This document shows positions 1 to 41,079 of a stretch of DNA of 64,000 nt, piece after piece (the stretch's first letter is position 1; each line of letters opens with the position of its first letter). Below the pieces are notes generated by a model. That model saw only the letters and a program-made list of their open reading frames with translations, did no database searches and had not been told where the DNA came from. The DNA comes from Nakaseomyces glabratus (taxonomy: Eukaryota; Ascomycota; Saccharomycetes; Saccharomycetales; Saccharomycetaceae), in the NCBI RefSeq assembly GCF_010111755.1, contig NC_088960.1, forward strand, positions 186,001 through 250,000, read 5' to 3'. A program made the translations under genes and the position numbers.

Positions 1-442
1 CGAACCAGAGCCAGAGCCTTCACCTGGGGTGGAACCAGATCCTGAACCAGTGCCCGAACCAGAGCCAGAGCCAGAGCCTTCACCTGGGGTGGAACCACTG
101 CCTGAACCAGAGCCAGAGCCAGAGCCTTCACCTGGGGTGGAACCAGATCCTGAACCAGTGCCCGAACCAGAGCCAGAGCCAGAGCCTTCACCTGGGGTGG
201 AACCACTGCCTGAACCAGAGCCAGAGCCAGAGCCACCTTCAGAACCGGATCCAGAACCGGAACCAGATCCTGAACCAGTGCCCGAACCAGAGCCAGAGCC
301 TTCACCTGGGGTGGAACCACTGCCTGAACCAGAGCCAGAGCCAGAGCCACCTTCAGAACCGGATCCAGAACCGGAACCAGATCCTGAACCAGTGCCCGAA
401 CCAGAGCCAGAGCCTTCACCTGGGGTGGAACCACTGCCTGAA

Positions 443-473
<31 letters not shown>

Positions 474-3400
474 CTTCACCTGGGGTGGAACCAGATCCTG
501 AACCAGTGCCCGAACCAGAGCCAGAGCCTTCACCTGGGGTGGAACCAGATCCTGAACCAGTGCCCGAACCAGAGCCAGAGCCTTCACCTGGGGTGGAACC
601 ACTGCCTGAACCAGAGCCAGAGCCAGAGCCAGAGCCTTCACCTGGGGTGGAACCACTGCCTGAACCAGAGCCAGAGCCAGAGCCACCTTCAGAACCGGAT
701 CCAGAACCGGAACCAGATCCTGAACCAGTGCCCGAACCAGAGCCAGAGCCTTCACCTGGGGTGGAACCACTGCCTGAACCAGAGCCAGAGCCAGAGCCTT
801 CACCTGGGGTGGAACCAGATCCTGAACCAGTGCCCGAACCAGAGCCAGAGCCTTCACCTGGGGTGGAACCACTGCCTGAACCAGTGCCCGAACCAGAGCC
901 AGAGCCAGAGCCTTCACCTGGGGTGGAACCACTGCCTGAACCAGAGCCAGAGCCAGAGCCACCTTCAGAACCGGATCCAGAACCGGAACCAGATCCTGAA
1001 CCAGTGCCCGAACCAGAGCCAGAGCCTTCACCTGGGGTGGAACCACTGCCTGAACCAGAGCCAGAGCCAGAGCCTTCACCTGGGGTGGAACCACTGCCTG
1101 AACCAGAGCCAGAGCCAGAGCCACCTTCAGAACCGGATCCAGAACCGGAACCAGATCCTGAACCAGTGCCCGAACCAGAGCCAGAGCCTTCACCTGGGGT
1201 GGAACCACTGCCTGAACCAGAGCCAAAGCCAGAGCCTTCACCTGGGGTGGAACCACTGCCTGAACCAGAGCCAGAGCCAGAGCCACCTTCAGAACCGGAT
1301 CCAGAACCGGAACCAGATCCTGAACCAGTGCCCGAACCAGAGCCAGAGCCTTCACCTGGGGTGGAACCAGATCCTGAACCAGTGCCCGAACCAGAGCCAG
1401 AGCCAGAGCCTTCACCTGGGGTGGAACCACTGCCTGAACCAGAGCCAGAGCCAGAGCCACCTTCAGAACCGGATCCAGAACCGGAACCAGATCCTGAACC
1501 AGTGCCCGAACCAGAGCCAGAGCCTTCACCTGGGGTGGAACCAGATCCTGAACCAGTGCCCGAACCAGAGCCAGAGCCTTCACCTGGGGTGGAACCACTG
1601 CCTGAACCAGAGCCAGAGCCAGAGCCTTCACCTGGGGTGGAACCAGAACCGGAACCAGATCCTGAACCAGTGCCCGAACCAGAGCCAGAGCCAGAGCCAG
1701 AGCCTTCACCTGGGGTGGAACCAGATCCTGAACCAGTGCCCGAACCAGAGCCAGAGCCAGAGCCTTCACCTGGGGTGGAACCACTGCCTGAACCAGAGCC
1801 CGAACCAGAGCCAGAGCCAGAGCCTTCACCTGGGGTGGAACCACTGCCTGAACCAGAGCCAGAGCCAGAGCCACCTTCAGAACCGGATCCAGAACCGGAA
1901 CCAGATCCTGAACCAGTGCCCGAACCAGAGCCAGAGCCTTCACCTGGGGTGGAACCACTGCCTGAACCAGAGCCAGAGCCAGAGCCTTCACCTGGGGTGG
2001 AACCAGATCCTGAACCAGTGCCCGAACCAGAGCCAGAGCCTTCACCTGGGGTGGAACCACTGCCTGAACCAGAGCCAGAGCCAGAGCCTTCACCTGGGGT
2101 GGAACCACTGCCTGAACCAGAGCCAGAGCCAGAGCCTTCACCTGGGGTGGAACCACTGCCTGAACCAGAGCCAGAGCCAGAGCCACCTTCAGAACCGGAT
2201 CCAGAACCGGAACCAGATCCTGAACCAGTGCCCGAACCAGAGCCAGAGCCTTCACCTGGGGTGGAACCACTGCCTGAACCAGAGCCAGAGCCAGAGCCTT
2301 CACCTGGGGTGGAACCAGAACCGGAACCAGATCCTGAACCAGTGCCCGAACCAGAGCCAGAGCCTTCACCTGGGGTGGAACCACTGCCTGAACCAGAGCC
2401 AGAGCCAGAGCCAGAGCCTTCACCTGGGGTGGAACCACTGCCTGAACCAGAGCCAGAGCCAGAGCCACCTTCAGAACCGGATCCAGAACCGGAACCAGAT
2501 CCTGAACCAGTGCCCGAACCAGAGCCAGAGCCTTCACCTGGGGTGGAACCAGATCCTGAACCAGTGCCCGAACCAGAGCCAGAGCCAGAGCCTTCACCTG
2601 GGGTGGAACCACTGCCTGAACCAGAGCCAGAGCCAGAGCCACCTTCAGAACCGGATCCAGAACCGGAACCAGATCCTGAACCAGTGCCCGAACCAGAGCC
2701 AGAGCCTTCACCTGGGGTGGAACCACTGCCTGAACCAGAGCCAGAGCCAGAGCCAGAACCTTCACCTGGGGTGGAACCACTGCCTGAACCAGAGCCAGAG
2801 CCAGAGCCTTCACCTGGGGTGGAACCAGAACCGGAACCAGAGCCAGAGCCAGAGCCACCTTCAGAACCGCATCCAGAACCGGAACCAGATCCTGAACCAG
2901 TGCCCGAACCAGAGCCAGAGCCTTCACCTGGGGTGGAACCAGATCCTGAACCAGTGCCCGAACCAGAGCCAGAGCCAGAGCCTTCACCTGGGGTGGAACC
3001 ACTGCCTGAACCAGAGCCAGAGCCAGAGCCACCTTCAGAACCGGATCCAGAACCGGAACCAGATCCTGAACCAGTGCCCGAACCAGAGCCAGAGCCTTCA
3101 CCTGGGGTGGAACCACTGCCTGAACCAGAGCCAGAGCCAGAGCCAGAACCTTCACCTGGGGTGGAACCACTGCCTGAACCAGAGCCAGAGCCAGAGCCTT
3201 CACCTGGGGTGGAACCAGAACCGGAACCAGATCCTGAACCAGTGCCCGAACCAGAGCCAGAGCCTTCACCTGGGGTGGAACCACTGCCTGAACCAGAGCC
3301 AGAGCCAGAGCCACCTTCAGAACCGGATCCAGAACCGGAACCAGATCCTGAACCAGTGCCCGAACCAGAGCCAGAGCCAGAGCCTTCACCTGGGGTGGAA

Positions 3401-4746
3401 CCACTGCCTGAACCAGAGCCAGAGCCAGAGCCTTCACCTGGGGTGGAACCACTGCCTGAACCAGAGCCAGAGCCAGAGCCTTCACCTGGGGTGGAACCAG
3501 ATCCTGAACCAGTGCCCGAACCAGAGCCAGAGCCAGAGCCTTCACCTGGGGTGGAACCACTGCCTGAACCAGAGCCAGAGCCAGAGCCACCTTCAGAACC
3601 GGATCCAGAACCGGAACCAGATCCTGAACCAGTGCCCGAACCAGAGCCAGAGCCTTCACCTGGGGTGGAACCACTGCCTGAACCAGAGCCAGAGCCAGAG
3701 CCAGAGCCTTCACCTGGGGTGGAACCAGATCCTGAACCAGTGCCCGAACCAGAGCCAGAGCCAGAGCCTTCACCTGGGGTGGAACCACTGCCTGAACCAG
3801 AGCCAGAGCCAGAGCCTTCACCTGGGGTGGAACCACTGCCTGAACCAGAGCCAGAGCCAGAGCCACCTTCAGAACCGGATCCAGAACCGGAACCAGATCC
3901 TGAACCAGTGCCCGAACCAGAGCCAGAGCCTTCACCTGGGGTGGAACCACTGCCTGAACCAGAGCCAGAGCCAGAGCCTTCACCTGGGGTGGAACCACTG
4001 CCTGAACCAGAGCCAGAGCCAGAGCCACCTTCAGAACCGGATCCAGAACCGGAACCAGATCCTGAACCAGTGCCCGAACCAGAGCCAGAGCCAGAGCCAG
4101 AGCCTTCACCTGGGGTGGAACCACTGCCTGAACCAGAGCCAGAGCCAGAGCCACCTTCAGAACCGGATCCAGAACCGGAACCAGATCCTGAACCAGTGCC
4201 CGAACCAGAGCCAGAGCCTTCACCTGGGGTGGAACCACTGCCTGAACCAGAGCCCGAACCAGAGCCAGAGCCAGAGCCTTCACCTGGGGTGGAACCACTG
4301 CCTGAACCAGAGCCAGAGCCAGAGCCAGAGCCTTCACCTGGGGTGGAACCACTGCGTGAACCAGAGCCAGAGCCAGAGCCACCTTCAGAACCGGATCCAG
4401 AACCGGAACCAGATCCTGAACCAGTGCCCGAACCAGAGCCAGAGCCAGAGCCTTCACCTGGGGTGGAACCACTGCCTGAACCAGAGCCAGAGCCAGAGCC
4501 ACCTTCAGTACCGGAACCAGATCCTGAACCAGTGCCCGAACCAGAGCCAGAGCCTTCACCTGGGGTGGAACCACTGCCTGAACCAGAGCCAGAGCCAGAG
4601 CCACCTTCAGAACCGGATCCAGAACCGGAACCAGATCCTGAACCAGTGCCCGAACCAGAGCCAGAGCCTTCACCTGGGGTGGAACCACTGCCTGAACCAG
4701 AGCCAGAGCCAGAGCCAGAGCCTTCACCTGGGGTGGAACCACTGCC
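1..4746 (-). repeat. compound minisatellite encoding Ser-Gly stalk
   Basis: About 4.7 kb of in-frame tandem repeat. It is built from a 6-bp step (AGAGCC on +, Gly-Ser on -), a recurring spacer CTTCACCTGGGGTGGAACCA (encoding STPGEG) at roughly 50-115 bp spacing, and a longer variant with a GGATCC-containing block (encoding SGSGSEGG). The spacer occurs roughly 70 times by hand estimate. Copy lengths differ only by multiples of 3, so the frame is kept. Point variants are rare (for example near 1225, 2870, 4355 and 4509), which suggests recent homogenisation. The true length on the chromosome may differ because such arrays collapse in assembly. Confidence 0.95.
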
Positions 4747-5739
4747 TGAATCATGATTTTCGTGTTGGCCAGGGATATAGCATTTTTGGTAATCTGGAGC
4801 GGTTTCTAAACTTGTAGCAATTACAAATGTTTTGAGACTTTCTCCATGATAGACGATGTATCCCGTAGTCGACCCCAGAGTAGTTTCATCGTAACCGCAG
4901 CCAATGTCATAAACATACCTACCTGAGTCTGTGTTAACTGTCACTATACCCGTTTGATTATTGTATGTGAATGAACCATTATCACCAATACTACTGATCA
5001 GATTACCACTAATCAGACCTCTTACCTTAATGATATTTGAAGAAGTAGATTTGACAGATATACCACTAATGCCCCCTAAGTTTATTGTATTTCCGACAAA
5101 AGATGTAGTCTCCATATGTAGGATACCTCTAGCAATATTAATATTACCGGTACCACTGACATCACCATATAAATAATACTTTACTCCTAAACTTAATTCA
5201 ATAGTACCAGTATTTACTAGCCTACCACCTGGAGTACTTATTTGTAGAATGTTTCCCTCCCTAGAAGGATCATTTTGCTCAACAGCCGAATATGGCCTCA
5301 CTGTTAATTTACCAGCATTGATGATTTCTGGTGATCCCAGAATAAGCTTGGAAACTGCATCAGATCTGGTATGCGCTAACTGTATATCAACTTGATAATA
5401 ATTTTTAAAAACAGCTGGGCTGAAGTTTATTGTTTGTTTGAAGCCATCTAAATTTTTATTTATAAGCTCAAAATTACAATAGTTAACAAATTCCTTACCA
5501 ACATTGAAGTCAAAGTCGGATTTATCATTAGCTACAGCACGGAAAGTACAGCCTTCTTGGCTGCTAACAATACCACCTCCAAAATTATACTCTGAACCAT
5601 CAACGTAGCTGATTGTATCACCATTTTGAATGACAAGTTCATTCTTCAAGTCTTGATTACCTTCATAATTTTTTGCCTGGGCAAACACACCTTGTATGTA
5701 GAGAAAACTCGACAGAAATAGTGGTGTATAACAAAGCAT
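1..5739 (-). CDS. Hyr/Iff-like cell-wall adhesin with giant Gly-Ser repeat stalk (3' end outside window)
   Basis: Reading down from an ATG at 5739, the minus strand is open to position 1 (1,913 codons, no stop). The first ~23 residues form a signal peptide ([20 protein letters not shown]). A non-repetitive domain follows to about residue 330, with scattered cysteines. It is clearly related to the N-domain of the adhesin at 7567-10818: both carry an INFSP segment and then a run around ILGSPEI. From 4746 down to 1 the protein is almost only Gly and Ser, in (SG)n runs broken by [12 protein letters not shown] and GTGSGSG units. By family knowledge the N-domain resembles the hyphally-regulated cell-wall protein N-terminal (Hyr/Iff) domain, a surface ligand-binding domain on a glycosylated stalk. 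A C-terminal GPI signal is expected beyond the window but is not seen. Start chosen because it gives a signal peptide immediately; a TATA lies about 105 bp upstream. Confidence 0.85.
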
Positions 5740-7566: not shown

Positions 7567-10500
7567 TTAGAGGAATAGTAGGGCAACTAATGCTGGCAGC
7601 ACCAATTCAATACCTTGAATGCTTAGCATAGCTGCATTACCACGGAACGTAGAACTTAGGATTGTTGGGATTCTAGAGTTGATTGGTATAATGTTTGAAC
7701 CAGACAATGAGCCTCCGTTCACCTGCTGTGCAGGATTTGATCCTGGAGAAGGACCTTTAGTAGGCTGTGTACCCCCAGGACCTTGATTGGCTTTTGGTTG
7801 TGATGCTGACCCACTTAATGTCTTTGTCGATGGTTTTTGAGCTTCCGATTTTCCAGTATTCGATTTCCCAGAGGTAGGCTTGACAGTATTTGACTTCCCA
7901 GAGTTTGATTTCACAGTGCTTGGTTTCTCATTTTCTTTGCTAACATTATTGGACGAATGCCCATTACCTGGCCCCGCCTTCCCGCCTTGAGAACTGTTAA
8001 CATTAGGCTTGGGACTTGGCGTAGCTTTACTCGAAAGACCATTTCCTTTCTTTGAATTGATGGTAGATACACGATTATCACCACTTGGATTTGGCTTCGA
8101 AACATTAGAAGATGCAGACGATGGCTTACTAGATTTTGGAGAGGCAGATGCTGACTTTGAAGAATCATCTATGTTGTGACTGGATGGGTTTAGGTGTATT
8201 CCCGAGTTCACTTTGGAAGGTTTAGCATACCCATTATCGCTATTTCTATTATTACTAGTTTCGACTGAGGACTTCGAAGAGGAACTCACTGTACTCGATG
8301 AATTCATATAGGCTTGAGGGGAAGATGAAAGTTTAACTGACGAGGACAAAGCAGGATTTATTACTACACGCTGACTTATTGATGGCTCTTCAGTTGGAGA
8401 CAAAACAGCCAATGGGCTACCAATTGCTATACTATTTTTTGAAGACAAGCCATTAGAAGAACCTGCAATATCTTGGCTACCAATGGAATTAATGTTGGAT
8501 GGCTGGATACCAGGATGAACAACGCTTGAGGAGTTAGCAAAGCGGTTTATGACAGATGGTTTTGCAGTAGGAGAATAGACACTAGGTTGCTGAAAATTGA
8601 CACTCGGAGTTGAGGTATCAACGTGTGGAGGCTTGCCCAAAGGTGAGTTTGGCTTAGGCTGTGGGTTATTTGAAGTGTCATTGTTTGCAGGCTGTACCAC
8701 AGGAGGAGTATTACCTTGTGGCTGTGGGTTTGCTGGACCGGCAGCCGGAGAGTTTGCATTTGAGTTTGCATTTGAGTTTACATCTGGTTTAGGCTGTGGG
8801 TTACTTGAAGTGTCATTGTTTGCAGGCTGTACCACAGGAGGAGTATTACCTTGTGGCTGTGGGTTTGCTGGACCGGCAGCCGGAGAGTTTGCATTTGAGT
8901 TTGCATTTGAGTTTACATCTGGTTTAGGCTGTGGGTTACTTGAAGTGTCATTGTTTGCAGGCTGTACCACAGGAGGAGTATTACCTTGTGGCTGTGGGTT
9001 TGCTGGACCGGCAGCTGGAGAGTTTGCATTTGAGTTTGCATTTGAGTTTGCATTTGAGTTTGCATTTGAGTTTACATCTGGTTTAGGCTGTGGGTTACTT
9101 GAAGTGTCATTGTTTGCAGGCTGTACCACAGGAGGAGTATTACCTTGTGGCTGTGGGTTTGCTGGACCGGCAGCTGGAGAGTTTGCATTTGGTTCTTCTT
9201 GAGAAGGTTTGTTTGGCTTGGGTTGTGGACCGACATATGTGCCATTTTTAGCTGGTCCGTTTGGAGCAGCGTTCACAGGCGTATCTACGTCTGGTTGTGC
9301 GTTTGCCGGAGGATTAGCAGGCGCATTAGCAGGAGGATTAGCAGGAGGATTAGCAGGCGCATTTACATCTGGTTGTGCATTAGCAGGCGCATTAGCAGGA
9401 GCATTGGCAGGTGCGTTTGCAGGAGGATTAGCCGGCGCATTAGCAGGAGGATTTTCAGGAGGATTGGCAGGTGCGTTTGCAGGAGGATTAGCCGGTGCAT
9501 TAGCAGGCGCATTGGCAGGCGCATTTACGTCTGGTTGTGCGTTTGCAGGAGGATTAGCAGGCGCATTAACAGGCGCATTAGCAGGAGGATTAGCAGGCGC
9601 ATTAGCCGGCGCATTAGCAGGAGGATTAGCAGGTGCGTTTGCAGGAGGATTAGCAGGAGCATTGGCAAGCGCATTTACGTCTGGTTGTGCGTTTGCAGGA
9701 GGATTAGCAGGTGCGTTTGCAGGGGCATTAGCAGGAGAAACATTTTCACCATCTCTTTTAAATAGATTCATAATATCCCAGCCTTTGATATCACCATATT
9801 TATCTAGTAAGGTTGACTTTACTCTCCTAAATTCTTTTGATGATTCCACACAAATGGTGTTGGTTGGTGGCACCTGGTGAAATGTGACAGAAAAATAGTC
9901 ATACAACTTGCCTTGGTACCATGTTTTGGTTTGTGACGTCAGAATCAACTCACTTTTGTATCCACAACCTATGTTGTATATAAAGGAGCCCTCGCTGGTA
10001 GTTACAACAAGAAGACCAGTCTTATCATTATAGTTGAACTTACCATCAGACCCTGCAGAACTTATTGCGGAAGATGTTTCCAAACCTCTGACGGTAATCG
10101 GGGCAGAAATCGAATTTTTAAATGCAACAGCTGTATTTGATCCCAAGTATATGATATTTGAAAATGACAGGGAATCAACATATAAAGTACCTCTATGAAC
10201 ACTAATAGATCCACCAAGACCAAATACTTTCCCAAATAGATAATACTTGCTGGCAGCATCAAAACTAATTTTACCAGTATTGTTTATAGAACCTGTTGGC
10301 CTACCAATTTTCAACAGGTTACCTTCATTGTTAGAATCGCCTATCTCAACCCCTGTCGAAATATAACTTATCTCTCCACTATTAACAATTTCTGGTGAAC
10401 CCAAAATCAGTCGAGAGGAAGCATCTGAATTGGTATGACCTAGTTCCAAGATAAACTTGTTAGTATTTTTGAATTCAATTGGACTGAAGTTTATGGACTG

Positions 10501-10818
10501 TATTGTCTTAGCTCCAGTGTTAGCATTTCTAATTTTGAAAACACAACCATTCTCAAATAACTTTGCATCTGAAGAGGTTGTTAAGGTAAATGGTAAACCT
10601 TTAGCGGCATTAATGTCAATAGAACATTGCTTCCCGCCATGATATCCGCCATTGAAAATATATTCTGAACCATCATTTAGTACTAGCCCACCACCATTAT
10701 CAATGATGACTTCATCTTCAAATATCTGATTACCCGTTAACACCGTTGGTCCGGGGTAAATGCTTTTCGTATTGACCAAAGTTAGCCACCACAATTGTAT
10801 TAAAAGGATAAGTTTCAT
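7567..10818 (-). CDS. Hyr/Iff-like GPI-anchored adhesin with Pro/Asn/Ala-rich repeat stalk
   Basis: The protein is 1,083 aa from the ATG at 10818. The frame stays open upstream to a GTG at 10893, but the ATG puts a hydrophobic signal peptide (MKLILLIQLWWLTLVNTKS) at the N-terminus. Residues ~20-350 are a conserved domain related to that of the adhesin at 1-5739. Residues ~360-505 are ANAPANPP repeats broken by AQPDVN. Residues ~545-725 hold four ~45-aa repeats (PAAGPANPQPQGN, TPPVVQPANND, NPQPKPDVNSNANS). A Ser/Thr/Lys-rich region follows. The C-terminus (FRGNAAMLSIQ followed by a hydrophobic tail ending VALLFL) has the form of a GPI-anchor signal. By family it should be an adhesin cross-linked to cell-wall glucan. 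The ligand is unknown. A TATA (TATATAAA) lies at 10944-10951. Confidence 0.9.
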   Translation of the reverse strand: MKLILLIQLWWLTLVNTKSIYPGPTVLTGNQIFEDEVIIDNGGGLVLNDGSEYIFNGGYHGGKQCSIDINAAKGLPFTLTTSSDAKLFENGCVFKIRNANTGAKTIQSINFSPIEFKNTNKFILELGHTNSDASSRLILGSPEIVNSGEISYISTGVEIGDSNNEGNLLKIGRPTGSINNTGKISFDAASKYYLFGKVFGLGGSISVHRGTLYVDSLSFSNIIYLGSNTAVAFKNSISAPITVRGLETSSAISSAGSDGKFNYNDKTGLLVVTTSEGSFIYNIGCGYKSELILTSQTKTWYQGKLYDYFSVTFHQVPPTNTICVESSKEFRRVKSTLLDKYGDIKGWDIMNLFKRDGENVSPANAPANAPANPPANAQPDVNALANAPANPPANAPANPPANAPANAPANPPANAPVNAPANPPANAQPDVNAPANAPANAPANPPANAPANPPENPPANAPANPPANAPANAPANAPANAQPDVNAPANPPANPPANAPANPPANAQPDVDTPVNAAPNGPAKNGTYVGPQPKPNKPSQEEPNANSPAAGPANPQPQGNTPPVVQPANNDTSSNPQPKPDVNSNANSNANSNANSNANSPAAGPANPQPQGNTPPVVQPANNDTSSNPQPKPDVNSNANSNANSPAAGPANPQPQGNTPPVVQPANNDTSSNPQPKPDVNSNANSNANSPAAGPANPQPQGNTPPVVQPANNDTSNNPQPKPNSPLGKPPHVDTSTPSVNFQQPSVYSPTAKPSVINRFANSSSVVHPGIQPSNINSIGSQDIAGSSNGLSSKNSIAIGSPLAVLSPTEEPSISQRVVINPALSSSVKLSSSPQAYMNSSSTVSSSSKSSVETSNNRNSDNGYAKPSKVNSGIHLNPSSHNIDDSSKSASASPKSSKPSSASSNVSKPNPSGDNRVSTINSKKGNGLSSKATPSPKPNVNSSQGGKAGPGNGHSSNNVSKENEKPSTVKSNSGKSNTVKPTSGKSNTGKSEAQKPSTKTLSGSASQPKANQGPGGTQPTKGPSPGSNPAQQVNGGSLSGSNIIPINSRIPTILSSTFRGNAAMLSIQGIELVLPALVALLFL
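8640..9190 (-). repeat. in-frame 135-bp repeats in adhesin stalk
   Basis: Four copies of a ~45-residue unit. The marker GCTGTACCAC (+ strand) starts at 8691, 8826, 8961 and 9121, so spacing is 135, 135 and about 159 bp. The longer interval comes from two additional NANS steps of 12 bp. Near-identity between copies indicates recent expansion or conversion. Confidence 0.9.
9295..9740 (-). repeat. ANAPANPP low-complexity repeat in adhesin stalk
   Basis: A 12-bp-type degenerate repeat encoding Pro-Ala-Asn steps (ANAP, ANPP) punctuated by AQPDVN blocks, about 145 residues. On the + strand it leaves two long open frames that are shadows. Confidence 0.9.
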
Positions 10819-33836: not shown

Positions 33837-34043
33837 ATCCTTATGCTCGGGAAATACGCATATCAGTGAGGATTCGTTCCGAGATTGTGTTTTTGCTGGT
33901 TGAAATTTAATTAATTATAAACCAGACCGTACTCCTCATGGCTCGTCTGCGTCCCGTCTCCTTGTGAGTTGGGTAGTGGGCAGTGCTACACTTAATTCCG
34001 TGGCATTGTAGAGCGCATGCAGGGAATTTTTGGCATCATTTCA
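33837..34043 (+). ncRNA. SNR14: U4 spliceosomal snRNA
   Basis: The first ~90 nt are almost the S. cerevisiae U4 sequence I recall: the ATCCTTATGC 5' end, GGGAAATACGCATATCAGTG (5' stem-loop with its kink-turn, bound by Snu13/Prp31), GAGATTGTGTTTTTGCTGG (U6-pairing stem I region), and the ACCAGACCGT central part. An Sm-type site AATTTTTGG lies at 34025-34033, preceded by GCAGGG, as in yeast U4. U4 pairs with U6 to hold it inactive in the tri-snRNP. The RNA is about 205 nt, versus 160 in S. cerevisiae. The extra length lies between the central domain and the Sm site. The exact 3' end is inferred from spacing after the Sm site. Confidence 0.95.
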
Positions 34044-34494
34044 CACATGGACAACATAGTTCTAGCGGTGGTCAATCACTGGAATGTTGTCCCTGTTCCT
34101 TTTTTTTTCTATTCCTAATAATAAGGAGGTCTCCTGTTTGTAATGAACTTACCTCTATAATGCTGTGCTCGATGAGTCCATTGGCTGGCAGTATAGAAGT
34201 TCTTTTATATATGTCAATATTCAGTTGTATATCATTGGACCCATCTTGTCATTTTGTCTTTAAGGGAAAATCCTGTGTGTAGCTTGCATCCTCGAGACTC
34301 ACTAAAATGATTAGGATTCGATATATCCCGAACGCAGGGAGGTTAATAATTGTATGCGACTCCCCCGGACTTGAACATTCCATAGGGGAACTTTACTTTC
34401 TGTATACTAGAGGGGGGCCAAGTGGTGCTCAATCTAATTTTATTAATTTCAAGACCAGAACAAGCTATTATATTAGCTCGGATGTTTATAGGGC
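34044..34494. other. U4-YIA6 intergenic region
   Basis: 451 bp holding the U4 3' flank and the YIA6 promoter. Short frames present look fortuitous. No other feature seen. Confidence 0.6.
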
Positions 34495-35580
34495 ATGGGA
34501 CAAGATGAGTTTTATCGAGAGAAATCTCATCCTGAAGAGATATGTTTCCCAGATAGTGCTTCTCCTTTGACATCTACTGATGTTATCGAGCCATTTAGAG
34601 GAGACACTATTGACAATAAGATGGAGGCTTACAAAGGGCTGGTACAAGAAGTACCGCGAGTGCGAAATACGCTGTTTGGTTTCACGCTTAATGATAACCG
34701 TATCAATGCTATATCTGGTGCCCTGGCGGGGTTGCTGTCAGGTATAGTAGTGTGTCCTCTTGATGTTGCCAAGACGAGGTTGCAAGCTCAAGGATTGCAA
34801 ACGAGAACCACCGAGAATTTGTACTACAGGGGGTCCATAGGGACAATGACCACTATTGTGAGGGACGAAGGTGTACGTGGGTTGTATAAAGGTCTAGTGC
34901 CAATTATCATGGGTTATTTCCCAACATGGATGATATATTTTTCAGTTTACGAGTTTTGTAAGGATAATCTACGAACAAACTCTTCTAACTGGAGCTTTGT
35001 ATCTCATTCATTCTCTGCTATTACTGCGGGTGCTGTATCGACTGTGGTAACCAACCCGATTTGGGTCGTGAAAACTAGACTAATGCTTCAGACTCATATA
35101 GGAAGCAACACCACTCACTACCAAGGTACCTACGACGCATTCAAGAAGATAATAAATCAGGAAGGGGTTAAAGCGTTGTATGCAGGATTGGTCCCATCAC
35201 TATTGGGATTATTGCATGTAGCTATTCATTTCCCTGTTTATGAGAGGTTGAAGGTATCATTTAAGTGCTATCAAAGGGATGAGAGTTCTAATGAATCAAA
35301 AATTAACTTGAAACGATTGATTTTAGCATCATCAGTCTCAAAGATGGTTGCCTCGGTGCTTTCATACCCTCATGAAATACTTAGAACAAGGCTGCAATTA
35401 AAATCTGACCTCCCATCACATCAGAGAAGATTGATTCCATTGATAAAGATTACATACATTCAAGAAGGAATATTCGGATTCTATTCTGGTTTTGGAACTA
35501 ATTTATTCAGAACTTTACCTGCATCGGCTATTACTCTAGTTTCTTTCGAATACGTTAGGAACTTTCTCAACAAAATATAG
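34495..35580 (+). CDS. YIA6: mitochondrial NAD+ carrier
   Basis: A 361-aa mitochondrial carrier with three tandem repeats, each bearing the signature: PLDVAKTR (~residue 83), PIWVVKTR (~188) and PHEILRTR (~298). The PIW variant in repeat 2 is characteristic of the NAD/pyrimidine-nucleotide subgroup. It imports NAD+ into the matrix across the inner membrane. S. cerevisiae has the ohnologue pair YIA6/YEA6 (YIL006W/YEL006W). The neighbouring EPS1 (YIL005W) supports the YIA6 side. Its ~55-residue hydrophilic N-terminus precedes the first helix, as in Yia6. The gene is convergent with an unrecognised gene at 37078, with a 1.5-kb gap that holds the structured array. Confidence 0.92.
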
Positions 35581-36259
35581 CATCGATAAATGAGGTTGGT
35601 TTTTTTCATTGTTTTGTTTATTCATCGCATTACGGGTTAGTGGCCAATTAATAATATTCAGCATTACATTTTTCTTTATTTATTGCTCAGCAACAATCAA
35701 CAAAATTTCTCTTATATATAGATGATGCATATTCACTCGGTGCAAAATAAATAATAATGGCCGATAATTAATACTTGCAAATATCAAAACTACTATTTAT
35801 AAATATTCGGCTAACTAGTAGTATTTAACAAAAGTTTTTAAATTAATACGTTCAGTATAATATTCTGCTATATCTTCTTTTTTCAGCAATGTGAATCCAT
35901 CCACAGAGTTTGCATCATATAGCTATATATATTTAATAAATATCTTCTTATACTGCTTTTAACTCGAACCTTGAACTGTCCAAAACAGAAAAATTTATTA
36001 CTTTTATATCTTCTTGCGTAAAATAACCGCCAAAGTTCGCCCTTTTGCGACACTTAACATTGATTGTATGTAGTCATTATACAACTTAAGTTCAAAAATT
36101 GCAATGAGACACCCCTTATGGGTTATCTCTAGGTATGTAACTATTTACAGAATAAACTCACCAGTCCACATATGTCATATTATATCTCAGCTGGCCAAAC
36201 TAAGATAATGTATGATACGTATGGTGGTTTATATATGTATATATGACTTTACTGAAACG
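35581..36259. other. YIA6 3' flank, AT-rich
   Basis: About 680 bp of AT-rich sequence between the YIA6 stop and the structured array. TATA-like runs occur (for example around 36230-36243), but nothing supports a gene. Confidence 0.55.
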
Positions 36260-36864
36260 CAGTTCACTACTGGTAGGTAATGTACTGGAACGGTCTAAAT
36301 CTAGTGATCGATTTAGCCTCCATCAGCAAAACTTCACTGATCTTCACATACATTATCCATCAGGAACACAGTTAGAATTAATAATAAAAACTGGAACGGT
36401 CTTAATGGTTGAACAGGTAAGCCTCCACCGTCAGGATGAATGTATGTTGTCAGTAATCAACGCATATGATTGTTTTTGTTTTCATTAAGACACAGTACAT
36501 TTGTTCCTATTTGAAATGAACTGGAACGGTCTATGGCATCTCATGTGAAATACCATAGCCTCCACTTAATGAAAATGGATGGTCGATTCAATTGACGAAA
36601 CGATACGAATAATCTCAGACACAGCATAATCATTATAAAATTATGCTGGAACAGTTCAAGTTGGTTGAGCAACAAGACCTCAACTGAAAATAGTTTCGTA
36701 ATTGAATGCAAAATCAAACAATGTCATATTCAATTAAAATTATTCTTCCATGAAACGCAAACTAAATTTAATTAGTTTGGAACGGTCCACAGGGTTTCAA
36801 AACAATAAAACCCATTCCATGGCCTCTATTCAGTGGTAATAATTTTAAAGTCTAACATTGTTTG
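36260..36864 (+). ncRNA. candidate structured RNA: five tandem stem-loop modules of unknown family
   Basis: Five modules with a core period of 106-131 nt share CTGGAACGGTC followed by a stem-loop and GCCTCCA (cores 36286-36322, 36392-36427, 36522-36564, 36647-36683, 36778-36828). The inner stems differ but pair: CTAAATC/GATTTAG, CTTA/TAAG, CTATGG/CCATAG, GTTG/CAAC, GGGTTT/AAACCC. Each core is preceded by a hairpin ending in its CTG/TTG, with different sequences: CAGT/ACTG, CAGTT/AACTG, CAGTaCATTT/AAATGaACTG, AGCATAAT/ATTATGCT, CAAACTAA/TTAGTTTG. Modules are closed by outer helices such as TTTTCATTAAG/CTTAATGAAAA and CAAACAATGT/ACATTGTTTG. Paired G-T positions (36277/36356; 36779/36827) are wobbles only if the + strand is the RNA. 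It lies between convergent genes. I do not recognise the family; transcription is unproven. Confidence 0.7.
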
Positions 36865-36879
36865 GGTTAGTAATAGTAA

Positions 36880-36985
36880 TAATAAAATAATAAAATAATA
36901 AAATAATAAAATACAATTTTTTTTTTTTTGTGTGCATAAAATGCACTTTTTTTATTTTTTTTTTTTTTTTTTTTAATTTTTTAAT
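36880..36985. repeat. AATAAAAT microsatellite and poly-T tracts
   Basis: Tandem AATAAAAT-type units (36880-36912), a T13 run, a small perfect hairpin GTGCAT-AAA-ATGCAC (36932-36946), then T7 and T17-type runs. Low-complexity DNA just 3' of the structured array. Confidence 0.8.
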
Positions 36986-37077
36986 GTTTTTTTGTTTTTG
37001 TGTTTTTATAATACCAGTTCATCATAATTTACACTAATATACATTCACCTGGCTAAATTGTCTCTCGTTCATAGAGT

Positions 37078-38502
37078 CTATTGTACAGTCCATGCAGATT
37101 CACCGTCCTTATATTCTTCGTCCTGGAAATAAGCGTCAATTTGGTCGAAGATCATTTTTCTGTACTTGGCTGCTTCAGACATGATTGGGCTGGATTGGTC
37201 TAAGCTCTCGTTAGCCTTGTCGTCAGTGTTATCTTCTGGCAGGAATTCTAGGTGGTTTCTGCCATTGATTACAGCGGCTACAGACGTTGGGGAAGACATA
37301 GCGACTTTGGCCTCGAATTCTTCTACGGGCATTTTCATTCCCAAGGGCTTTTTGTTCTTATTCTTCTTAGACTTTGATTTTTTACCTTTCTTCTTCTTCT
37401 TGTTAATCACATGCCAGCCTCTTCTCAATTTACCTTTAGCCTTAGAGCAACAGGAGTTATTTGTCTCTTCAGCACTTTCTCTGCCTGCATCACTTTCTTC
37501 ATTTTTGTGTTCGACTTTGTGTTCAACTTTGAGTTCAACTTTGTGTTCAACTTTGTGTTCCGGTTTCTCTTCCCTTATATCATCATGAATTTCAGTAATT
37601 CTTCCCTGGATATCCTTGGAGAAGGCCTCCTTCAGATTCTTGAACCCATGCTTCCTGGCTAGCTTCTTCATTCTCTTCATGCTGCCAGATGGGAACAAGG
37701 ATGGATTATTGGGGACTGACTCATTGAAATCAGACACAGAGGAATTACTGTCAGAGTTAAGATCTAAATTCTTTGTGGCATAAGTAGAGATGTCAGACAA
37801 CATAACAGAACTAAAGCATTCTTTTGGTAACTTGGTTCTGATAATAGTAACCATACTTACCGTTGAACTATTAATACTCTCACAATCAATCGCCTCTTGT
37901 TGAGTACGATCATGACCGTAAGCAATACTGCCCTCCCAGCAGCTTGAACCGTCGTAAATACTAGAGGTCTCGCATACTTGTGAGACCGAGTTGTCGTTAG
38001 TTTCATCAGATAGCTCCCCACTCTCATTTCCATCGGGCATGTAAGGGAGTATTGGGTACATCTGCTTGTATGCTTCAAATAGACTTCTCTGACCTCTTTC
38101 GCGAGCATCTTTGTAGACAGCTTGAGGTTCAAGAACAGTTTCAGCAGAGGATCCACTCCCATCTTCCCATGATGGAATTCTAGATGCAATATTATTCATA
38201 GAGCAAAAGGAGTTGCTAACAACTTCCATGTCAAATTCATAGTCTTCCAAAGTTGCGTTTGGGCCGTAGACTATTTCAATGACCTCAGAATAATCAACAG
38301 GTTTTTCGTAAATATTTCTGGTAACATCAATGGACTTACTGGAGAAGGCACCATTGTGGAACCAGTGTTTGAATTTGTTCAACTTATCAGAGCGTTTCCA
38401 CTTAAATACTGAAAAGGAAGTAAGAGATTCCTTGACATTTCTGAACTTCTTGGTGAAGGAAGTCCATCTGGAGCCGGCAGAAAAGTTGAAGTTGTTGATC
38501 AT
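37078..38502 (-). CDS. unrecognised basic protein with Lys-rich tract
   Basis: A 474-aa open frame with a clear ATG and ordinary codon use, so I regard it as a real gene, though I recognise no family. The N-terminus (MINNFNFSAGSRWTSFTKKF) is basic and aromatic with the segment HWFHNGAFSSK. Residues ~45-130 are mixed and look foldable (VIEIVYGPNATLEDYEFDME). The middle is Ser/Asn-rich. At ~325-345 there are repeated HKVE/LKVE steps. At ~375-392 a dense Lys run (KKKKKGKKSKSKKNKNKK) could be a nuclear or nucleolar signal. The C-terminus includes FEAKVAMSSPTSVAAVINGR and ends GESAWTVQ. No signal peptide or membrane segment. S. cerevisiae has no gene at this position between YIA6 and EPS1. Function unknown. 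Confidence 0.75.
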   Translation of the reverse strand: MINNFNFSAGSRWTSFTKKFRNVKESLTSFSVFKWKRSDKLNKFKHWFHNGAFSSKSIDVTRNIYEKPVDYSEVIEIVYGPNATLEDYEFDMEVVSNSFCSMNNIASRIPSWEDGSGSSAETVLEPQAVYKDARERGQRSLFEAYKQMYPILPYMPDGNESGELSDETNDNSVSQVCETSSIYDGSSCWEGSIAYGHDRTQQEAIDCESINSSTVSMVTIIRTKLPKECFSSVMLSDISTYATKNLDLNSDSNSSVSDFNESVPNNPSLFPSGSMKRMKKLARKHGFKNLKEAFSKDIQGRITEIHDDIREEKPEHKVEHKVELKVEHKVEHKNEESDAGRESAEETNNSCCSKAKGKLRRGWHVINKKKKKGKKSKSKKNKNKKPLGMKMPVEEFEAKVAMSSPTSVAAVINGRNHLEFLPEDNTDDKANESLDQSSPIMSEAAKYRKMIFDQIDAYFQDEEYKDGESAWTVQ

Positions 38503-41079
38503 TTTTTGAAGTTCTTTTTTTTACTTGAAGTTGTTTTTATTTGTCTAATAGTGAGTATTAGGCGCTTTTAGTTTATATGAGGAGGAGAATATACTCAAAA
38601 TAAATATTATGAAGCTGAATTAAAATGTAAAACGGGAAAGAAATATTTAAGACTTAAAAAAAAGACGGCCTATTAATATACGTTTTTGGAATAAATCAAG
38701 GTATAGTTCAGGTACACAAACGTAACCATTTTGTTGGTTTTTGTACCATAAGAATCATATATTCACTAATAATTTCCGAGGTTTAATTCCGGACCAAACG
38801 CTAACCTCTCAGAAATACCCATACTGATAGTATTATGAATTTATATTTATAAATTAACCACAAACTTTTAACCTAAAATCCATCTTTTTTCCTGTTTGGG
38901 GACTTTATTTTACTCACTTTAGAATTATTGTGGACTAGCCGCTTGTGCAGATCCAAGGAAATTAAATACATGTGACCATTTCGTCCAGGCCGATTGTTTA
39001 TCTATGGTTTGCAATTCTTAGAAGAAGGGTATATAGCGTGTAGACTAATAACAAGTATTTAGCTGTTACTAATACAGTTTTCAGTTCTTGATGGTTTTAT
39101 TCATCTTTTTTTAACACAACCTCCCATGGAAGCCTGAAAATTTCCTGTTAATTAGGATAATTCTTACTGCATTGGATAATGTAAAGAAGTAGTTGTTGTA
39201 GCTTTCAAATATTTTATTTCATTGTTTTTTGGTACAGCTGGGTTGCAATAATAAGGCGAAATTTCGTGTTTTATTTCCGTTGCACAACAAAAATTCTATG
39301 CTGTATTCTAGAAGGAGGAATTGTACAGGCTCCAAAGATCTATGTTTCCATGCACAGTTGCAAGATTTGAGTGATATTGGTGCTTTGCTGTTCACTTTAG
39401 AATTTACTGGTAAGAGATACACATATTACATTTTCCTCCGACAAACTCTGCAGACAGTATGGCCATTATGGACCGGTAGTGTTCTTCCACATTGGATATA
39501 TTCAATTGCTTCCGTTGGTGGTCCATCTTCACTTTGACCGACTGGTCCTATCCGATATTTCACATATCATGAGTGCTTACTTTCAATAAGTTCTCTAAAA
39601 GACCAGCAATTTGGCTATTTTATATCTTGGCTAACCTGAAATTTTTAAGAGTCTGATGCCCACGGGACTTTCTGTGAGCATGGTTAAAGTGATTTACCAA
39701 TTTTTTCAAAAATGATTGACAGTTATTTCCTTTAATTGATGAATTTATAAGCCGCAGTGCAACACTCGTGGCAGTGTGGAGATGAATGGACAAGAAATTC
39801 GTTAGAAAGGTTCCTTCAAGACACGCTGCTGTTTCTTCTGTGTATTTGTTCTGTTGAATTTCGAAGTTGGATGTGCTGTCCTTTCAATTGTCGAGGGCTG
39901 CCATTTCATAATATTATGTAATTTTGTGCATATGATTTCTTAACAAGTGTTTTAGAGATTCAATTGCTGACTATGAACTACGACATAGTGAAGCAAGTGG
40001 TTTGTATGGATCATGAATTTCGTTAATCACAACACTAAACTAGGCTGCTTCAATTTCGGTTAGCATGAAGTACAGTAATGTTTCGTTAAGGCGTAATGAA
40101 GAGATCTGATCACACAAAACATTTGAGATGCAACAGCTACCTTTGATACAGTGATTTCTATGAAGGGTAGAAATGCATAAGAGCACTTGATATTTTTTTC
40201 AAACAGTGTCAATGCTGTGATCTTTAGGTATCTTATTAGCACCCACGCATTTTAATCTACTATCAATAATAGGATTACGAGAGATCGCGTGGCTTTTCTG
40301 ATTTTTTAAAGTAGTGAGACAGAACTTACTGCTCTCTCATTGATAACAATAGCTAAATTGTTCTGGAGTGTAGAATTCAAGGGGGTTTAATAATTACTAG
40401 TTTTGCTGCTTTCATTCCACCACCCCAGAATATTTCTCAACTTTCTGCACAAAATTATAAACATATAAAAGATCAGACGTTGTTCTAATAGTAATACTAT
40501 TATATTATACTATTAATATTCCATTTTTATCACTGAATTCTCGTATCTACTATTTAAGAAAATTAGTGGTAAGCGTTAGCAAAGATTAGGTGATTTAATA
40601 GAATTGGAGTTGCTTAAGACCTGTATTCATTCTACTGTACTATTTATACCTGTACAGCCACTGGTCTCTAGTCTCTGATTTAGTGTGTTTCAGTCAAATT
40701 CAATTTTCAGACAAAAATTAATTGAAAGTATCAAGGATCCACCCTATCGTGACTAAGAACCTCCGGAACACTTGCCTACACACAGGGACTGCTCGAAAGC
40801 TATAAATAACTGCACGGACAAGGTAGGTTTATCATTTTCCGGTACCACTACTTGCCAAATTTATGACAATTCAATTCCCATCAGTTCTCCAGATATAGCG
40901 ACTCAAATTGTTATAACAAAGAACCTGATTAGACTTTTTCCAGTTTAATAGTAACGATCTATCAGAAAGGGTTCGCTCACTTAAGTTGTGAATATTCAAC
41001 TGAAAGGGAAATTATTGGTGTTAAATAGCAGGTGAGAATCAAAATAGCAAATTGTTATAACTAATAAATACTCGGGAAC
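38503..41079. other. 2.6-kb gene desert upstream of EPS1
   Basis: This region has no reading frame longer than about 100 codons that looks real, no tRNA, and no C/D or H/ACA box set that I could assign. A TATA-like CTATAAATAA lies near 40800, about 280 bp upstream of EPS1. The length is unusual for this compact genome, so an unannotated RNA or a decayed gene is possible. Confidence 0.5.

Follow-up and report, generated by a model that had tools for sequence, protein, structure and literature searches.

A three-way-junction fold with a nearly invariant joint in five diverged tandem copies in the genome of Nakaseomyces glabratus

INTRODUCTION

Noncoding RNAs built from repeat modules, such as the roX RNAs of flies, are free in their letters outside short boxes. 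In the purine and TPP riboswitches and in the hammerhead ribozyme, conserved joint letters stand between three free helices. Each roX RNA is described as carrying several copies of one structured element (PMC4719309). Yeast telomerase RNA is large and combines a three-way junction and an Est1 arm with bulged protein-binding stems, and the same source gives the C. glabrata telomerase RNA as one reported without the three-way junction (PMC6115765). Li and Breaker (2017) presented 15 other motifs, in a main text in which the words "glabrata," "tandem," and "repeat" do not occur (PMC5640933).

Here, we analyze five consecutive RNA-like modules, noticed in a preliminary description at 36260-36864 between convergent genes, in a 64,000-nucleotide window of N. 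glabratus (contig NC_088960.1, positions 186,001 to 250,000, forward strand; all coordinates below are those of the window).

RESULTS

Genomic setting of the array

The source assembly comprises 12.73 Mb in 13 contigs, and all evidence on the array was drawn from this one genome. CTGTGGGGTCTGGGTG, a permutation of the C. glabrata telomere repeat given in PMC8211666, has 1209 matches in it; those listed sit at either end of contig 1 and at the beginning of contig 2. To the left of the array are a U4 snRNA (33837-34049, plus strand), matched by Rfam, and a mitochondrial carrier open reading frame (ORF) (34495-35580), assigned by Pfam, which we take to resemble YIA6/YEA6. The U4 match spans 213 bases against a model of 138 positions and therefore holds extra sequence. 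To the right, and thus upstream of the array on the minus strand, lies an ORF of 474 amino acids (37078-38502, minus) that contains a lysine-rich stretch; in a minus-strand reading, the array would extend from 231 to 830 bases past its stop codon. This ORF is an orphan: it matched no Pfam family, is present as a single copy in the genome, and was the only sequence returned among 4841 scored candidates of a protein search (19 member sequences).

Directly outside module 1 lies a TATATA-rich element (36226-36245, no strand assigned), which may be either a TATA box for the plus strand, very near the module, or a 3'-end signal for the minus strand. Directly outside module 5, poly(dA:dT) tracts together with a minus-strand TATAAAA (37010-37004) occupy 36917-37010 (again without assigned strand), and these could be a promoter for the minus strand or a 3'-end region for the plus strand. 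A perfect short hairpin, GTGCATAAAATGCAC, at 36934-36948, flanked by two poly-T tracts, also adjoins the array. Elsewhere in the window, the 2.6 kb between two divergent ORFs (38503-41079) contain neither an ORF of at least 120 amino acids nor an Rfam match. A 1913-amino-acid frame on the minus strand (1-5739), open at the window edge, has a unique N-terminal part followed by long repeats (Tandem Repeats Finder, period 174, 28 copies, 5-4741), cell-wall-adhesin-like in appearance. Another minus-strand ORF (7567-10818) harbors near-perfect tandem repeats of 135 and 159 bases (97 and 100% matches) as well as 12/36/78-base arrays, all within 8650-9737.

The modules share one architecture

Each module runs from an outer helix, P1, through the strand (A)ACR to hairpin P2, then to hairpin P3 (GA-AC-GG-U-C...GCC-UC) and the linker NA, and back to P1. 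P2 is closed by CAG/CUG, kept in all five copies (in copy 5 by a compensated change to CAA/UUG), and P3 carries an AC and a U bulge at its base. A third box, (A)ACRCA, which the preliminary description had lacked, precedes the 5' hairpin in 5/5 copies, and in all of them P1 starts directly before this box and directly after UCNA. Because of this box and the outer helix around P2 and P3, we regard each module as a three-way junction, a drawing made after inspection of the copies. The AC bulge and the bulged U already seen in the core were borne out as invariant, as was the A of NA; the N column of this linker reads C, C, C, A, and U in copies 1 to 5, and the first G of GG is an A in copy 4.

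None of the modules is assigned to a strand here. Module 1 (36248-36330) comprises P1 at 36248-36255/36323-36330, P2 at 36260-36287, and P3 at 36288-36320. In module 2 (36346-36447), P1 (36346-36358/36434-36447) is joined by a joint-side GG/CC, and the hairpins lie at 36369-36393 (P2) and 36394-36425 (P3). Module 3 (36479-36575) has P1 at 36479-36489/36565-36575, P2 at 36493-36523, and P3 at 36524-36562. The P1 of module 4 (36586-36707) is CAG/CTG (36616-36618/36684-36686), with P2 at 36622-36648, P3 at 36649-36681, and a distal helix at 36586-36602/36691-36707; its joint is the most diverged of the five, and its P3 contains an A.C on the plus strand that is a G.U on the minus strand. Module 5 (36734-36847) has a P1 in two parts (36734-36744/36837-36847 and 36748-36754/36829-36836), P2 at 36758-36779 (CAA/TTG), and P3 at 36780-36826. 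The linkers between modules are short, 86 bases in total.

Two helices of the preliminary description have to be corrected. The outer helix that it gave module 1 (36268-36284/36349-36366, -15.3 kcal/mol) lacks homology to those of the other modules, where it has no counterpart, and is in competition with module 2's P1 (-16.0); the homologous helix is the P1 listed above. As for its core helix UGGA/UCCA, the U-A, G-C, and A-U pairs were found in 5/5 copies, and the column of the second pair was the variable one (C, C, C, A, U).

The boxes are notable for their clustering

The reported core starts (36286, 36392, 36522, 36647, and 36778) and their spacings (106, 130, 125, and 131) were reproduced. 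The two boxes said to be common to all five copies, CTGGAACGGTC and GCCTCCA, are each exact in three of the five, with copies 4 and 5 deviating: the former reads TTGGAACGGTC in copy 5 (one change) and CTGGAACAGTT in copy 4 (two changes), the latter ACCTCAA in copy 4 and GCCTCTA in copy 5. Exact CTGGAACGGTC has six matches on both strands of 12.7 Mb, three of them inside the array. When up to one mismatch was allowed, it was found at 86 places (four in the array) compared with 171 for the reversed control, so the box by itself is not rare. The two-box pattern GGAACRGTN{10,40}RCCTCNA matched the genome 10 times, with five of the matches within 542 bases at the array; since its reversed control is commoner (183 matches), the pattern is notable for clustering and not for its total. 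Tandem Repeats Finder detected no period of 106-131 in the array, which is hence no plain tandem repeat, and a coding repeat was ruled out because the box copies occupy all three reading frames.

Pairing is maintained while letters change

All combinations of upstream and downstream arms were paired in silico, with P1 taken from 20-nt flanks, and the true partners were ranked among all 120 permutations. For P1, own partners reached a mean of -10.4 kcal/mol versus -5.0 for others and ranked 1st of 120, as did the own partners of P3; those of P2 ranked 2nd, and 1st once CAG/CUG was excluded. The P1 and P3 sums were reached by 0 of 2000 mononucleotide shuffles each, and the inner part of P2 was not beyond chance (111 of 2000). 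Of the 22 consensus pairs, 16 were changed on both sides (slid partners, 1-5; shuffles, 0/500), and 80.8% of the alignment cells paired. With two GA/UC pairs added, the fraction was 82.5% on the plus and 84.6% on the minus strand, and 16 of 24 pairs changed on both sides on either strand. The earlier claim of fixed boxes between stems that change sequence and stay paired thus holds, both in own-partner over cross-module pairing and in the compensated pairs. When the arms and loops of different copies were aligned with one another, their scores were no higher than those of shuffles; pairing has therefore been kept without the letters, and the copies are old or saturated. These results support well that a single three-way-junction fold, its joint almost unchanged, is present in the array as five copies that have diverged.

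Whole-array folding energies were below those of 20/20 shuffles on both strands. Individually, module 2 folded no better than shuffles (z of +0.55, -0.83, and -1.16), and P1 of module 1 was weak on the plus strand, where 35% of shuffles reached its energy (p 0.35) and the constrained fold did not form it.

Evidence on the strand is divided

The earlier assignment of the modules to the plus strand is not supported. Array folding favored the minus strand (z of -5.39 versus -3.72, 20 shuffles each), as did constrained folds, with 191 pairs and -135.9 kcal/mol on minus versus 178 pairs and -117.9 on plus. P1 of module 1 had -15.9 on minus versus -6.8 on plus, and P3 of modules 3 and 5 was likewise deeper on minus. 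We also counted for this strand two flanking features, the TATAAAA with poly(dA:dT) ahead of module 5 and the TATATA-rich element behind module 1. The plus strand, on the other hand, is favored by its A-rich unpaired letters (65 A and 41 T of 148); linkers were even (27 A, 30 T), and T exceeded A in the five further noncoding stretches that served for comparison, one of which is nested in another. Also deeper on plus were P1 of module 3 and P3 of module 2, and module 4 had its lower z there. Wobbles over all helices were balanced, with 12 G.U versus 11 A.C on the plus strand among 164 Watson-Crick pairs (p 0.53). The G-T pairs once offered as strand markers do not decide the matter, because 36277/36356 belongs to the nonhomologous helix and 36779/36827 to a variable column. 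On balance, we lean slightly toward the minus strand.

No described family and no further copies were detected

A search of the whole window with 4227 Rfam families at their gathering thresholds returned just the U4 snRNA and a tRNA; none reached threshold in the array, in agreement with the preliminary description, which knew no family of this kind. At E values up to 10, five matches were obtained on 35600-37100, all below threshold: ceN92 (E 0.098, 27.4 of 50 bits), snoR20a (E 0.58), sR9 (4.2), psRNA14 (4.7), and rliA (9.8). They fall outside the repeated joint or on a single copy. A telomerase RNA, which would carry a template complementary to the 16-nt telomere repeat, was rejected, as CCCAGACCCCAC has 0 matches in the window at up to two mismatches, and so was a polymerase III gene, there being no B box on either strand within 35600-37100. 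Hammerhead ribozymes have the core strands CUGANGA and GAAA at their three-way junction; the joint strands (A)ACR, GAAC, and UCNA, or their complements, lack this core and have no Rfam match.

Two models built from the copies, R1 and R2, gave five window matches of at least 60.0 bits, a recovery that holds by construction, and the next match had 11.2 bits (R1). Scores with R1 and R2, respectively, were 72.8 and 72.4 bits for module 1, 67.5 and 70.2 for module 2, 79.2 and 79.2 for module 3, 80.4 and 81.8 for module 4, and 60.0 and 61.3 for module 5. A DNA similarity search for dispersed copies found the array alone. In addition, R1 was run on 18 + 68 and R2 on all of 86 off-array loci, which were taken from the 82 places within one mismatch of CTGGAACGGTC and the five off-array two-box matches. 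None of these loci yielded another convincing module, in a scan blind to modules with at least two box changes, as in copy 4. The one weak match, at locus L011, which had been picked by the same boxes, scored 22.7 bits (E 0.00056 for that search) with R1 and 16.4 bits (E 0.093) with R2; we take it as a chance match and not as a sixth module because it has no P2 and lies inside a 294-amino-acid open frame on the same strand. Another of the off-array loci lies antisense within a 119-amino-acid ORF. In the literature, the matches listed for the box letters concerned just the mammalian Ccr4-Not complex, rotavirus, and fly olfaction, and nothing listed there or in further literature searches was recognized as this array.

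DISCUSSION

An array whose letters are conserved just at the joint points to a putative, hitherto undescribed structured RNA. Tentatively, and with slightly less than even confidence, we explain it as an old series of five equivalent docking sites on a single transcript, probably meant for several molecules of the same protein. The stretch would be transcribed as one RNA, either a noncoding RNA of ∼0.6 to 0.7 kb or, if the minus strand is read, the 3' untranslated region (3'UTR) of the orphan ORF. As their letters are free, the arms would act only as struts. The recognized surface would be the joint—i.e., (A)ACR, the AC and U bulges, the GG/CC and CAG/CUG pairs, and the NA linker—since its letters have stayed almost the same in all five copies while the arms around it change freely. 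Five consecutive copies of one joint would make a repeated binding site, and together they may gather several molecules of a single protein, in the manner of a multivalent platform or sponge. Points against such a docking array are module 2 and the inner part of P2, neither of which exceeds shuffles, the weak plus-strand P1 of module 1, and the unconstrained RNAalifold result given below. The balanced wobbles also speak against it, as an RNA should have an excess of G.U on its own strand.

This balance would suit a DNA-level feature, i.e., inverted repeats made and kept by template switching during replication, with no functional RNA. Perfect stems can arise and persist through template switching (PMC8794818), which in yeast lengthens imperfect inverted repeats (PMC3820800) and may be the cause of the even count. 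Since it leaves unexplained both the invariant joint and the equal distance from P1 to the joint in five copies, we consider this origin improbable. An unlikely reading, if not a negligible one, is that the array is simply the 3'UTR of the adjoining minus-strand orphan ORF and holds tandem cis-acting elements for localization or stability; the better folding of the minus strand fits this, whereas the A-rich unpaired letters favor plus, and the TATAAAA and poly(dA:dT) between stop codon and array would suit a separate gene. Clusters of snoRNAs cut from one precursor are found in yeast, and the modules, each closed by its own P1 and separated by short linkers, might similarly be five paralogous small RNAs of ∼85 to 120 nt. 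We give this as little credence as the DNA-level origin, given that no snoRNA or other small-RNA family reached threshold and that the weak ceN92 and snoR20a matches miss the repeated joint or touch a single copy.

In known junction aptamers and ribozymes, three free helices meet at a joint with a few conserved letters. The modules look alike in this respect, and they might be a new aptamer or ribozyme instead of a protein site, with junctions in tandem that bind a ligand or cleave themselves; with no Rfam riboswitch or ribozyme at threshold and no hammerhead-type core strands in the joint, this is very unlikely. We find it scarcely credible that the modules are plus-strand two-state switches, in which P2 and UGGA/UCCA would compete in every copy, as the preliminary description suggested. 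RNAalifold without constraint, run on the same MAFFT alignments, did return the core UGGA/UCCA hairpin and not the junction on both strands. However, just two bases (U and G) are disputed and a single structure holds the rest, the rival helix loses its G-C pair in copy 4 and has a G-U in its place in copy 5, and the plus-strand assignment is not supported, so a switch is not needed.

If the array is transcribed, it would represent a structured RNA so far missed in a yeast that has been studied intensively, one molecule of which would realize the same fold in five different ways, and a new RNA-protein or RNA-ligand interface accessible to direct pull-down. Transcription would also imply that such RNAs can be recognized inside one genome by comparison among tandem copies. 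It is rather doubtful, but conceivable, that the array stands for a new eukaryotic RNA class of five equal tandem three-way junctions under sequence selection only on the joint, whether as a multivalent platform for docking or as a chain of five aptamers or ribozymes.

Compared with known junctions, the joint letters differ from those of the purine and TPP riboswitches and the hammerhead, and there is no Rfam match. Yeast telomerase RNA resembles the array in having a junction with bulged stems; it has one junction per RNA versus five, and its template is absent from this window. Like the motifs of Li and Breaker (2017), the modules are candidates for structured RNAs of fungi that came to light through comparison. 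The fly roX RNAs and other repeat-module noncoding RNAs likewise consist of several copies of one structured element, five in the present case. The units of roX are stem-loops, whereas those of the array, known from DNA alone, are three-way junctions with a bulged joint, a repeat unit that is, to our knowledge, unlike those of known repeat-module noncoding RNAs.
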